Below, one piece after another: positions 17,495 to 21,556 of a DNA stretch of 64,000 nt (its first letter is position 1; every line of letters begins with the position of its first letter). The translations under genes and the position numbers were made by a program. Source of the DNA: Bacteroidota bacterium (GTDB taxonomy: Bacteria; Bacteroidota; Bacteroidia; Chitinophagales; Chitinophagaceae); assembly GCA_005798905.1 (NCBI GenBank), contig SYIK01000011.1:124001-188000 (forward strand), written 5' to 3'. The notes beneath the pieces are model-generated. The model searched no databases. It saw only the letters and a program-made list of their open reading frames with translations, and was not told the origin of the DNA.

Positions 17495-18439
17495 ATGTTT
17501 CACTCACCCGACATATTAGCTGTTGCTTACAAGCAAAATTTGTTGCAAGACGAATTGGTTGTTTTGCAAGAAAAAGAACGGCTTATTCCGGGTGCAATTC
17601 GCTATAATATAAAACGCTACCATCCGGCAGGTAAATGGAATATGGAAGATTCTGGTATGTTGGTTTATCATTTTGAGAAAACAAAACCACAGCAAAATTA
17701 TTTAGAATTAAAATTTTGCATTTCCGGAAATATATACTGTCGTCAAAAAGACTCGGAATGTGATTTATGTAAACGGAGTAATTCTAAAGTTTGTACGGAA
17801 AAAGTAGAATCTGTGGATGTTTTAAATTTTCAATTTTCGCCAGCACAGTTATCTCAGTTTGTAAAACCAAGAAAAGGGGATGAAGTTTTTTCATCCAATG
17901 TACTTCGATTCGAACATGGAAATTCTTTTGCAAAATTGATTCCAATTTGTGGAAAAATTCGAAATGTTTTAGAATCATTACTAAATAATACCTATTCTGG
18001 TGATTTGGAAAATATTTATATTAATGCACAAACGCAAATGCTGCTACTTTACAGCCTTGATTGTATGTTGGGCGAAAAAGAAATAGATTCAACTGTTATT
18101 TGTAAATTTTTATCAAACGAAGCAGATAGGGAAAAGATTACTCAAGCAAGAGAAATACTAATTGCCAATATTGGCGAACCAATTACGATTAAAGCATTAA
18201 GTAGAAAAGTGGCAATTAATGAATGTTATTTAAAAAAAGGGTTTAAAGAAATGTTTGGAACTACGATTTTTGATTTTTACCAAAACCAACGAATGGAACA
18301 TGCTAAATATTTGTTATATGAAAAAGGGTTAACTGTAACGGACGTTTCTCTATTATTGGGTTATTCTTCAATCTCTCACTTTTCATCTGCGTTTAAAAAA
18401 CATACAGGGCTTAAGCCATGTGAGTTACTCTTAAAATAA
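17495..18439 (+). CDS. AraC-family regulator with N-terminal cysteine cluster
   Basis: A 314-residue transcription regulator. The C-terminal part (about 210-312) has the two helix-turn-helix motifs of AraC/XylS proteins: ITIKALSRKVAINECYLKKGFKEMFG, and VTDVSLLLGYSSISHFSSAFKKHTG with the family signature. The N-terminal sensing region holds a cluster C82-x6-C89-x2-C92-x7-C100, with C75 nearby, which could bind a metal or Fe-S cluster or act as a redox switch. It lies immediately upstream of, and in the same direction as, the cytochrome-like operon, and is its likely regulator. The inducer is unknown. Confidence 0.85.
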   Translation: MFHSPDILAVAYKQNLLQDELVVLQEKERLIPGAIRYNIKRYHPAGKWNMEDSGMLVYHFEKTKPQQNYLELKFCISGNIYCRQKDSECDLCKRSNSKVCTEKVESVDVLNFQFSPAQLSQFVKPRKGDEVFSSNVLRFEHGNSFAKLIPICGKIRNVLESLLNNTYSGDLENIYINAQTQMLLLYSLDCMLGEKEIDSTVICKFLSNEADREKITQAREILIANIGEPITIKALSRKVAINECYLKKGFKEMFGTTIFDFYQNQRMEHAKYLLYEKGLTVTDVSLLLGYSSISHFSSAFKKHTGLKPCELLLK

Positions 18440-18440
18440 T

Positions 18441-18495
18441 TTTTAGTATATATATATATATATATTATTTATCGTAATTTTACGTTATACTAAAA
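18441..18495 (+). promoter_or_regulatory. Control region: inverted repeat around (TA)9 and ArsR-like box
   Basis: A perfect 10-bp inverted repeat, TTTTAGTATA (18441-18450) and TATACTAAAA (18486-18495), encloses a (TA)9 tract at 18447-18464. Next to it ATCGTAATTTTACGTT (18471-18486) matches the palindrome in front of arsR at 14 of 16 positions. It fills the gap between the AraC gene and the first cytochrome-like lipoprotein, so it probably carries the operator and promoter of that operon. The right arm ends nine bases before the ATG. Confidence 0.5.
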
Positions 18496-18504
18496 ATTAG
18501 CTTG

Positions 18505-19206
18505 ATGAAAAAGGTATCATACCCCATTCTACTTGTTTTCATAACTGTATTAGTTTTTGGAATTTTAGCTTGTAAACATGAGCTTTTGTTTGATCCTGGA
18601 CCAGAAATTCCACCAACACCAGCTACAAATGCATGTAGCCCAGATACATCATATTATATCAATGATGTGAAACCAATTATTATATCTAACTGTGCTATGG
18701 CAGGTTGTCACGATAATATTACGGCAGCGGATGGAATTCGTTTAACTACTTATAATTATATCATGTCCACTGTTCGTGCAGGGGATGCTTCGAGAAGTAA
18801 ACTTTATAAATCAATTATAAAAACTAATGATGAAAGAATGCCTCCTGCTCCAATGCCGGCATTAACTGCTGCACAAAAATTATTAATAAAAAAATGGATC
18901 GACCAAGGAGCAAAAAATAATTATTGTGTGGGACGTTGCGATTCAACAGTATTTACATTCGCTGGTGCTATAAAACCATTAATGGATAATAAATGTGTTG
19001 GGTGTCACAATCCGTCAAATTTAGGAGGTAATATTGACTTATCTGCATACACAGGGATTAAGACGGTTGCGTTGAATGGAAAACTTTTAGGATCAATAAA
19101 ACAACAAGCAGGTTATTCTCCTATGCCTCCAGGGGGGAACAAATTATCTGATTGTGAAATTACACAAGTGACCAAATGGATTACAAACGGGACTTTAAAT
19201 AATTAA
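18505..19206 (+). CDS. Cytochrome-c-like lipoprotein with two heme-type motifs
   Basis: A 233-residue predicted lipoprotein: signal peptide with lipobox ILAC (C23). Two related domains follow. The first has CAMAGCH (C63, C68, H69), a C-x4-CH spacing, with MPP at 112. The second has CVGCH (C164, C167, H168), a normal CxxCH heme c motif, followed by MPPG at 207. Each half ends in a KKWIDQG/TKWITNG helix. The pattern fits c-type-cytochrome domains of Bacteroidota and Planctomycetes surface proteins. Heme attachment is inferred. The TTG three bases upstream was not taken as start. First gene of an operon, 2 bp before the next. Confidence 0.78.
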   Translation: MKKVSYPILLVFITVLVFGILACKHELLFDPGPEIPPTPATNACSPDTSYYINDVKPIIISNCAMAGCHDNITAADGIRLTTYNYIMSTVRAGDASRSKLYKSIIKTNDERMPPAPMPALTAAQKLLIKKWIDQGAKNNYCVGRCDSTVFTFAGAIKPLMDNKCVGCHNPSNLGGNIDLSAYTGIKTVALNGKLLGSIKQQAGYSPMPPGGNKLSDCEITQVTKWITNGTLNN

Positions 19207-19208
19207 AT

Positions 19209-19589
19209 ATGCGAAATTTTATATTAGCCATTTTAGCAATGGGTTTTACTGTTATAACAGTTTCTTCTTGTTATTATGATAATGAAGCATTGTTATATGG
19301 AACTTCAAAGCCTTGTACCGATACGGTCGCAACTATTTCTTATGCGCAAAAAATAGTTCCACTTTTTCAACAAAGTTGTTACTCTTGTCATACGAGTGGT
19401 TCTCCAGGCGGAGGGATTGTAATGGGAACTTACACTACCGATAAAGCACTTGTAACTAATGGAAAACTATATGGGTGTATTTCACACGCAAGTGGTTTTT
19501 CTGCTATGCCAAAAAGTGCTGCAAAATTTTCTGTTTGTAATATAGCTGTAATAAAAAAATGGATTGATGCAGGGGCACCTAACAATTAA
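19209..19589 (+). CDS. Cytochrome-c-like lipoprotein, single heme motif
   Basis: A 126-residue predicted lipoprotein with lipobox VSSC (C21). One CYSCH motif (C57, C60, H61) could bind heme c, with a possible distal Met at 100 in SAMPKS. The C-terminal IKKWIDAGAPNN mirrors the repeats of the preceding protein, so the two arose from the same domain. It is 2 bp after that gene and 11 bp before the next. Probably a periplasmic or outer-membrane-anchored electron carrier or ligand-binding protein; partner unknown. Confidence 0.75.
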   Translation: MRNFILAILAMGFTVITVSSCYYDNEALLYGTSKPCTDTVATISYAQKIVPLFQQSCYSCHTSGSPGGGIVMGTYTTDKALVTNGKLYGCISHASGFSAMPKSAAKFSVCNIAVIKKWIDAGAPNN

Positions 19590-19600
19590 AAATTTTTATA

Positions 19601-20047
19601 ATGAGTAGAAAAAAAATCAAATTAATTCTTTTAGCACTTATTTTAGTTGGAGCCATTGTTGCCGTTTATATTTATAAAGAAGTTAATAGAAAGCCAGTGG
19701 ATACAGCATCTACTAAACCAGACTTTGTGAATACTGCCTTGTTTTATTTAGAAGAATTTCAACAATTGGATTCTGTTGCTGGGAAAAAATACAACGATAA
19801 ACTACTACAAGTAGAAGGAATGGTAAAAGAAGTGAGTAAAAATGAACGAGGATTTTATACAGTTTCGCTGGGAGATAGTAGCTCAATGTCTAGTGTTCGT
19901 TGTAGTATTGACAGTGCATCTTCGAACAATGCCAGTGAGCTTATCAAAGGTAGTGTTGTTATAATAAAAGGTATTTGTTCGGGTTATAATGCAGATGAAT
20001 TGTTGGGATCTGATTTAATTTTAGTTCGGTGCTATATCAATAAATAA
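19601..20047 (+). CDS. tRNA_anti-like OB-fold membrane-anchored protein
   Basis: A 148-residue protein with an N-terminal membrane anchor (residues 6-25). A beta-barrel region with LLQVEGMVKEVSKNERGFYTVSLGD and RCSIDS...GSVVIIKGICSGYN is typical of the OB-fold proteins called tRNA_anti-like. In exported Bacteroidota proteins this fold has no proven role and is not a sign of tRNA binding. It sits in the middle of the cytochrome-like operon, suggesting a shared envelope function. Confidence 0.75.
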   Translation: MSRKKIKLILLALILVGAIVAVYIYKEVNRKPVDTASTKPDFVNTALFYLEEFQQLDSVAGKKYNDKLLQVEGMVKEVSKNERGFYTVSLGDSSSMSSVRCSIDSASSNNASELIKGSVVIIKGICSGYNADELLGSDLILVRCYINK

Positions 20048-20082
20048 TTTTCAGAAATTTATTAAAAACTAAAAATCAATAT

Positions 20083-20643
20083 ATGAATACGAAAAAATTA
20101 TTGTTAGTTGTGATGGTGGCATTTAGTCTTCAATCAAACGCACAGCGATTTTTCACAAAAGGTGGAGAAATATTCTTTAATGCAACAAGCCCCGCCTCTC
20201 CCGAAAAAATTGAAGCAGTGAACAAAAGTGTGGTTTGTGTTGTAGATTCTAAAACAGGTGCAATTCAATTTTCTGTATTAATGAAAGGGTTTGAATTTCA
20301 CAGTGCATTAATGCAAGAACATTTCAATGAAAATTATGTGGAGAGTGAAAAATTTCCCAGTGCAGTTTTTAAAGGTCAGATTTCCAACAATGAAATTGTG
20401 AATTATAACAAAGATGGAGTTTACACAGTTAATGTAAAAGGAAAATTGACAATTCATGGAGTAACAAAAGATGTAGAATCGAACGGGAAATTGGCTGTAA
20501 AAGATGGAAAAATAAATGCCAGTGCCGAATTTAATATTGTACTTAAAGATTATAGCATTTCAATTCCTGCGCTTGTGGCAGAGCAAGTTGCAAAAATTGC
20601 TTCAATTAAAGTTGCATGTTCACTAGAACTTTTAAAAAATTGA
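20083..20643 (+). CDS. YceI family periplasmic lipid-binding-like protein
   Basis: A 186-residue exported protein with signal peptide ending near SNAQ (residue 20). The YceI lipocalin-like pattern is seen: GFEFHSALMQEHFNENYVESEKFPSAVFKG, followed by GKLTIHGVTKDV and the terminal VACSLELLKN. YceI proteins bind polyisoprenoid or amphiphilic molecules. In this operon it follows the OB-fold protein by 35 bp and precedes the beta-barrel gene by 13 bp. A carrier role between electron-transfer lipoproteins and an outer-membrane barrel is possible but is inference. Confidence 0.9.
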   Translation: MNTKKLLLVVMVAFSLQSNAQRFFTKGGEIFFNATSPASPEKIEAVNKSVVCVVDSKTGAIQFSVLMKGFEFHSALMQEHFNENYVESEKFPSAVFKGQISNNEIVNYNKDGVYTVNVKGKLTIHGVTKDVESNGKLAVKDGKINASAEFNIVLKDYSISIPALVAEQVAKIASIKVACSLELLKN

Positions 20644-20656
20644 AAATAAAATTAGC

Positions 20657-21556
20657 ATGAAAAAATTAATTGCATTTTTTGGTTTAATGATAAGCTTATT
20701 TTTTTTAAACAATAACTTGTTGGCGCAAGATGACGATTTGCTTAAACTTATTAGTGTTGACAAGCCCAAAAAAGAAATTGTAAAAAACGCATTTAAATCT
20801 TGTCGAGTTATCAATGCTCATTCGATGGAATTTGTTCGTCCAGGAACAATGGATTTTCGAATTCTTCATCGATTCGGATTATTGAATCAAGGGTATAAAA
20901 ATTTGTACGGATTAGATCAAGCAACGATGAGAATGGGGTTTGATTTTGGTATAACAAAGAATTTAATGTTTGGAGTTGGCCGAAGTACCGTTAAAAAGGA
21001 AGTAGATGCGTTCATTAAATATGCGCCTTTTTTGCAAGCGACAGGTGAAAAATCTTTTCCAGTAACATTTGCAATTGTTTCAGGAATTACAATTGATGGA
21101 ATGCCATGGGCCGATCCTATCAGACCAAATTATTTTTCTTCTCGATTGGGATATTATTTTCAAACAATTATTGGCCGAAAAATTTCAGAAGCATTTACTC
21201 TACAAGTTGTGCCAACTCTTGTACATAAAAATTTAGTGGTTGAAACAAATGACGAAAACGATATTTATTCCGTTGGTGTGGGTGGGCGAATGCGTTTATC
21301 AAAAAGAATTTCGGTGAATTGGGATTATTTTTATGTGCTAAATCCATTAACCAATATTTCTTTTCAAAATCCACTCTCACTCGGCTTTGATATTGAAACT
21401 GGTGGTCATGTGTTTCAACTTCATTTTTCCAATGCAGTAGGTATGAATGAACGAGCTTTTATTACTGAAACAGTTGGGAAATGGGGAAAAGGTGAAGTTA
21501 GATTTGGGTTTAATTTATCGCGTGTATTTCAAATAAAAAAGAAGAATTTGGATTAG
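20657..21556 (+). CDS. DUF5777-like outer-membrane beta-barrel protein
   Basis: A 299-residue exported protein with signal peptide (LLAQ near residue 24). The body alternates hydrophobic and polar residues with many aromatic strand ends, as in outer-membrane barrels. Segments such as NAHSMEFVRPGTMDFRILHRFG and the terminal KGEVRFGFNLSRVFQI fit the DUF5777 barrel family often found next to YceI genes in Bacteroidota. Function unknown. It is the last gene of the cytochrome-like operon before a new promoter element. Confidence 0.78.
   Translation: MKKLIAFFGLMISLFFLNNNLLAQDDDLLKLISVDKPKKEIVKNAFKSCRVINAHSMEFVRPGTMDFRILHRFGLLNQGYKNLYGLDQATMRMGFDFGITKNLMFGVGRSTVKKEVDAFIKYAPFLQATGEKSFPVTFAIVSGITIDGMPWADPIRPNYFSSRLGYYFQTIIGRKISEAFTLQVVPTLVHKNLVVETNDENDIYSVGVGGRMRLSKRISVNWDYFYVLNPLTNISFQNPLSLGFDIETGGHVFQLHFSNAVGMNERAFITETVGKWGKGEVRFGFNLSRVFQIKKKNLD

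Follow-up and report, generated by a model that had tools for sequence, protein, structure and literature searches.

A Bacteroidota gene set of small electron carriers, a YceI lipocalin and a DUF5777 outer-membrane barrel with a probable role in envelope electron transfer

The gene set and its layout

The window analysed here is a stretch of 64,000 nucleotides from a Bacteroidota bacterium of the Chitinophagaceae (GenBank assembly GCA_005798905.1, contig SYIK01000011.1, positions 124,001 to 188,000), and this report concerns a run of six genes at its positions 17495-21556. These genes encode an AraC-family regulator, two cytochrome lipoproteins (CytA and CytB), a protein with an OB fold, a YceI lipocalin and an outer-membrane barrel of the family DUF5777, an order on the + strand that had been proposed in a preliminary description and that was confirmed by Pfam matches at the coordinates listed below. 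The gene set probably moves electrons within the cell envelope, where they perhaps serve to protect or recharge fatty molecules. The host assembly, of 1.86 Mb and rated 99.7% complete, has a single DUF5777 gene, which is the copy in this operon.

17495..18439, + strand: AraC-family regulator, a lineage-specific controller (HTH_18, 2.4e-19, Pfam; C-terminal helix-turn-helix)
17738..17794, + strand: four-Cys cluster of the AraC regulator, CRQKDSECDLCKRSNSKVC, read from the sequence
18502..19206, + strand: CytA, diheme c-type cytochrome lipoprotein (PSCyt1 1.4e-9, Cytochrome_CBB3 3.1e-8; lipobox ILAC)
18691..18711, + strand: CytA heme motif 1, CAMAGCH (CX4CH type), read from the sequence
18994..19008, + strand: CytA heme motif 2, CVGCH, read from the sequence
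19209..19589, + strand: CytB, monoheme c-type cytochrome lipoprotein (CBB3 0.002, under the curated cut-off)
19377-19391, + strand: CytB heme motif, CYSCH, read from the sequence
19601..20047, + strand: OB-fold protein with an N-terminal membrane anchor (PF12869, tRNA_anti-like; Pfam 2.8e-18)
20083..20643, + strand: exported YceI lipocalin (PF04264; Pfam 3.5e-14)
20657..21556, + strand: DUF5777 outer-membrane beta-barrel (PF19089; Pfam 7.7e-91)
20867-20869 and 21407-21409: His71 and His251 of DUF5777, near-invariant, each in an H-x-F motif

The five genes from CytA to DUF5777 are separated by gaps of 2 bp (CytA-CytB), 11 bp (CytB-OB), 35 bp (OB-YceI) and 13 bp (YceI-DUF5777), in agreement with the 2-35 bp first described, and the regulator is set apart from them by 62 bp. 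The true start of CytA is probably the ATG at 18505. No terminator-like site was found on the + strand within 17495-21556. Two TonB receptors lie downstream of DUF5777, the second of the siderophore type; the first follows after a gap of 2 bp, unless its start is a GTG some 35 bp further downstream, inside the frame, as it may be.

A conserved core across Bacteroidota

Of the 395 Bacteroidota genomes sampled, 153 (about four in ten) encode DUF5777; the 14 control genomes all lack it. Neighbourhoods of about 14 kb were collected for 100 loci and joined with four plasmid loci, open reading frames were called and family profiles built, yielding 103 DUF5777 genes. Within four genes and on the same strand, 76 of these have a YceI gene, 77 a cytochrome of the family and 28 an OB gene. 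YceI occupies the position immediately upstream (-1) in 54% and the cytochrome the position before it (-2) in 38%, and the frequencies beyond four genes drop to 0-3%, so that the adjacency is neither a matter of chance nor a side effect of the families being common. Gene fusions between the operon families were searched for and none was found. Judged from these neighbourhoods, the conserved core comprises only YceI, DUF5777 and a small, predicted exported one-electron carrier. The OB protein, one of the five families first grouped together, is present at only about a quarter of the loci.

In the plasmid collection, DUF5777 relatives occur in Bacteroidota only. On one Hymenobacter plasmid (L049:3326-5178), genes for a truncated-hemoglobin-like protein and hemA follow a duplicated YceI-DUF5777 module.

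Exchange of the electron carrier

By family assignment, the carrier is exchangeable: where the cytochrome is missing, another carrier often takes its place. A Rieske protein stands there at seven loci (L048, L060, L070, L071, L106, L128, L135) and a plastocyanin-like cupredoxin at three (L127, L139, L141), with one further locus (L138) having a cupredoxin beside the cytochrome; all of these were confirmed by Pfam. Every Rieske, cupredoxin and EB_dh (ethylbenzene-dehydrogenase heme domain) match in the data lies within three genes of DUF5777. Taking c-type cytochromes, Rieske proteins, cupredoxins and EB_dh proteins together, 93 of the 103 DUF5777 loci have a one-electron carrier within four genes on either strand, a count that is approximate since it combines profile matches with a CxxCH pattern for other cytochromes. 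On a FastTree phylogeny of 120 DUF5777 proteins, the label for Rieske plus YceI changes at least five times even when only well-supported branches are counted, and the carrier labels as a whole change 29 times, versus 44 in shuffles, being clustered and far from monophyletic. This repeated swap among unrelated proteins, which have nothing in common but the carriage of single electrons, argues more strongly than any other finding here for electron transfer by the module.

The tree also contains a supported clade of 12 barrels linked to EB_dh proteins and cytochromes, several loci of which carry 4Fe-4S and NrfD genes as well. It is possible that this EB_dh-associated subfamily represents a separate respiratory complex with an outer-membrane barrel. 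EB_dh, c-type cytochrome, 4Fe-4S ferredoxin and NrfD genes occur in varied combinations at L059, L063, L066, L074, L096, L099, L108, L126 and L134, and the set at L096 lies downstream of a CusB-type efflux set.

The locus in close relatives

The close relatives are mostly metagenome-assembled genomes labelled Chitinophagaceae or Bacteroidetes, several of them from lakes or reservoirs judging by isolate names, and the order CytA-CytB-OB-YceI-DUF5777 is kept in the named relatives, with DUF5777 identities of 48-73%. What follows DUF5777 varies, being either DUF4920 and then ileS (L032, L038, L043) or a TonB receptor and a HmuY-family lipoprotein. Such a pair lies between the operon and ileS at L031:13489-16276 and L033:4197-6970, where the window has its two other TonB receptors. 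We considered the TonB receptors as members of the system and rejected them, as they are absent or different beside the same operon in close relatives. The regulator and the two receptors described earlier beside the set are thus present, but the former is specific to the lineage and the latter are variable cargo before ileS.

Properties of the proteins

The earlier reading of two lipoproteins with CxxCH-type motifs was borne out, with two motifs in CytA (one of them CX4CH) and one in CytB, which gives the operon three hemes. CytA scores above the cut-offs of PSCyt1, CBB3 and Cytochrom_C and has MPP after each heme motif, as a class I c-type cytochrome does; its first motif is kept in relatives as CA(M/K/T)(S/A)GCH, and the second, CVGCH, is also kept. 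CytB has the CxxCH and a downstream Met-Pro, and its CBB3 match reaches 18.8 bits against a cut-off of 27. Among the small cytochromes of the family, 81 of 85 have Met-Pro after CxxCH, a pattern typical of His/Met class I cytochromes. The host genome encodes CcmB, CcmC, CcmE (PF03100) and CcmF for heme attachment together with three COX1 genes, which shows that c-type cytochromes are made and oxygen is respired in this organism.

The DUF5777 protein matches PF19089 with 304 bits against a curated cut-off of 23.1. Its predicted model has 12 strands (mean predicted local distance difference test, pLDDT, 72; predicted template modelling score, pTM, 0.68) and, in comparisons with VIA-align and Foldseek, matches the KdgM/NanC porins (VIA-align Z 17.9) and FapF (Z 17.4). 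On this model, DUF5777 would be a 12-stranded outer-membrane barrel, with the fold and size of those proteins; it differs from them in its gene context and conserved histidines, the identity is about 7-12% with no sequence relation detected, and a profile search of the PDB with DUF5777 returned no sequence relative. His71 is conserved in 120, His251 in 119 and His190 in 101 of 121 sequences. The alternation of hydrophobicity puts His71 and His251 in a membrane-facing register, which weakens the idea of a bis-His heme in the barrel.

The YceI protein scores 53.8 bits against a cut-off of 23.7 (PF04264), and its best solved relative is the YceI protein 5ixg. The AlphaFold2 model of the OB protein (pLDDT 89) resembles the OB fold of the Klebsiella lipoprotein 3f1z, an exported member of PF12869; in contrast to that lipoprotein, the operon protein is anchored by a transmembrane helix and is co-encoded with YceI. 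A role as a CcmE-type heme chaperone was considered and rejected: the genome has a true CcmE, no CcmE profile matches the OB protein, and hhalign gives a probability of 1.2% against the host's own CcmE. On its contig 5 the host genome has a second OB-YceI pair (L158:8047-9067), upstream of an excinuclease-like gene and without a cytochrome or DUF5777, which suggests that OB and YceI form a unit of their own.

Proposed function and alternative explanations

Other YceI proteins are known to bind ubiquinone-8 and isoprenoids. One of the family, BcnA of Burkholderia, acts with the cytochrome b561 LcoA in protection against lipid peroxyl radicals, for which the authors suggest that LcoA re-reduces the quinone bound to BcnA (PMC9113575). 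The gene set described here is similar in that a periplasmic YceI lipocalin, expected to bind a quinone or isoprenoid, is paired genetically with a heme protein of its own. It differs in its partner, which is an inner-membrane b561 in Proteobacteria and here a c-type cytochrome lipoprotein, a Rieske protein or a cupredoxin, and in the added DUF5777 barrel; no cytochrome b561 gene lies beside the lipocalin in the operon. By analogy with BcnA-LcoA, the YceI of the operon would hold a redox-active isoprenoid, and the module may have a role in redox upkeep of the outer membrane. The gene set itself is apparently undescribed, the pairing of a lipocalin with a redox protein being already known. No paper naming DUF5777 was found in the open-access literature searched, subscription papers lying outside the search, and a search for YceI, cytochrome and Bacteroidetes returned no description of the set, only a Riemerella RNA-seq table listing one YceI gene.

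With this in mind, one may propose a Bacteroidota-wide redox module of the envelope, of which this operon is the form found in a single lineage and in which a carrier serves a lipophilic cofactor on YceI at the outer membrane, a proposal to which we give even chances. The direction of the electrons, the cofactor, the location and the physiological role are what we infer for the module. According to this proposal, YceI would hold in its barrel a redox-active lipophile, menaquinone or a related isoprenoid, with which a high-potential carrier would trade electrons one at a time on the periplasmic side of the outer membrane. DUF5777 would dock carrier and YceI and, as dock or gate, let the lipophile or the electrons reach this membrane. 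A link to the inner membrane may be provided by the anchored OB protein. Cells that respire oxygen would likely use the module to maintain the proper redox state of a lipid antioxidant or a quinone pool in the outer membrane, along the lines proposed for BcnA-LcoA. A broader claim is doubtful, if conceivable: that this is a phylum-level outer-membrane redox system, in which a lipocalin-borne cofactor is served by c-type heme, Rieske 2Fe-2S or blue copper carriers on a small histidine-bearing barrel, with redox exchange on or through the outer membrane that dispenses with multiheme nanowires.

Several observations weigh against the proposed module. The EB_dh/NrfD clade of barrels is mostly without YceI, so that the shuttling of a lipophile is not the whole story for the barrel. 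Two close relatives (L031 and L036) keep OB-YceI-DUF5777 but have neither cytochrome at the locus, and across the sample no carrier was recognised close to six DUF5777 loci that do have YceI, while three more are without any recognised partner. COX1, tried as a correlate of DUF5777, was present in 40 of 40 sampled DUF5777-positive genomes but also in 36 of 40 negatives, and a link to aerobic respiration is therefore not discriminating.

The main rival explanation is an outer-membrane electron conduit, in which electrons would travel between the cell and outside acceptors or metals, in either direction, by way of CytA in the periplasm, a passage formed by DUF5777, and CytB on the surface; we consider it unlikely. 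As in MtrCAB-type systems, exported c-type cytochromes and an outer-membrane barrel share one operon, and EB_dh, NrfD and 4Fe-4S modules adjoin one clade of barrels. However, in porin-cytochrome conduits a multiheme cytochrome is enclosed by a large barrel of about 26 strands, whereas DUF5777 has 12 predicted strands, too narrow for an insertion like that of MtrA in MtrB, and its cytochromes have one or two hemes each. The operon cytochromes thus bring just one to three hemes, exchangeable single-centre Rieske or cupredoxin carriers are used at other loci, and a lipocalin is part of the set. A surface position of CytB would favour the conduit: its N-terminus, CYYDNEA, has Asp at +4 and Glu at +6 from the lipid Cys, and acidic residues are frequent there in the CytB family (CYYDxEE), but this is only loosely like the published Bacteroidetes surface-export signals, in which acidic residues come right after the lipid Cys (K-(D/E)2 or SDDDD), with no exact match to the consensus (PMC5080379).

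It has also to be asked whether the set, with the neighbouring TonB receptors and an iron- or heme-sensing AraC regulator, processes imported iron or heme. The two receptors, one of the siderophore type, the Cys cluster of the regulator, the TonB-HmuY pair downstream in relatives, and ccsA, or hemA with a globin, near other copies are all consistent with such a locus, but the receptors are replaced or missing in close relatives, three of which run straight on to DUF4920 and ileS, and TonB receptors do not recur as a family when neighbourhoods are tallied more broadly; we hold this explanation to be improbable. Of the periplasmic routes first envisaged, for electrons, heme or a lipophilic redox cofactor, electrons together with the cofactor are accordingly best supported, by adjacency and the carrier swap, and the heme route is weak. 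Finally, OB and YceI could act as chaperones that load a protein of the outer membrane with heme or lipid, without any role in electron flow, as the anchored OB fold, which recalls CcmE, and the second genomic pair might suggest. The OB protein is unrelated by profile to the genuine CcmE of this genome, though, most DUF5777 loci have no OB gene, and non-heme carriers take the place of the cytochrome, all of which makes such a maturation helper very improbable.

The exchange of carriers offers a strong lead, open to direct test, on what this anonymous outer-membrane barrel does; the barrel and its partners are present even in a streamlined genome of 1.86 Mb. How redox balance is kept in the Gram-negative outer membrane, far from NADH and the quinone pools, is poorly understood, and the gene set would open this question to experiment in a major phylum.

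Regulator and intergenic DNA

The Cys cluster noted earlier in the regulator is real, and it is kept in the relatives with a readable regulator N-terminus except L078, where it is lost. It is a candidate metal or Fe-S sensor site, through which the AraC protein may switch the set on by metal or redox sensing. The AraC gene is limited at this operon to close relatives at the same chromosomal site, between an lpxA-like gene and ileS, and L032 has no AraC gene at that site.

Between AraC and CytA, at 18444-18498 of the window, lies a perfect 11-bp inverted repeat (TTTTTAGTATA/TATACTAAAAA) on either side of AT-rich DNA that contains a further palindrome, CGTAA/TTACG; it is specific to the window and was not seen in relatives. 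When the regions between AraC and the next gene were compared among relatives, no obviously shared operator motif emerged, and the promoter pattern TTTG-N-TAnnTTTG gave no usable signal over chance. The sequence TAACTTTG stands 7 bp upstream of the AraC start, and TA(A/T)TTTTG was read there by eye in relatives.

Two further families recur beside DUF5777 modules by clustering (L127, L138, L139, L141, L146, L149 and others): an ECF-type (extracytoplasmic function) sigma factor at 29 loci, and a putative outer-membrane barrel protein of about 445 amino acids with an N-terminal membrane segment at 18 loci, hinting at another mode of control.

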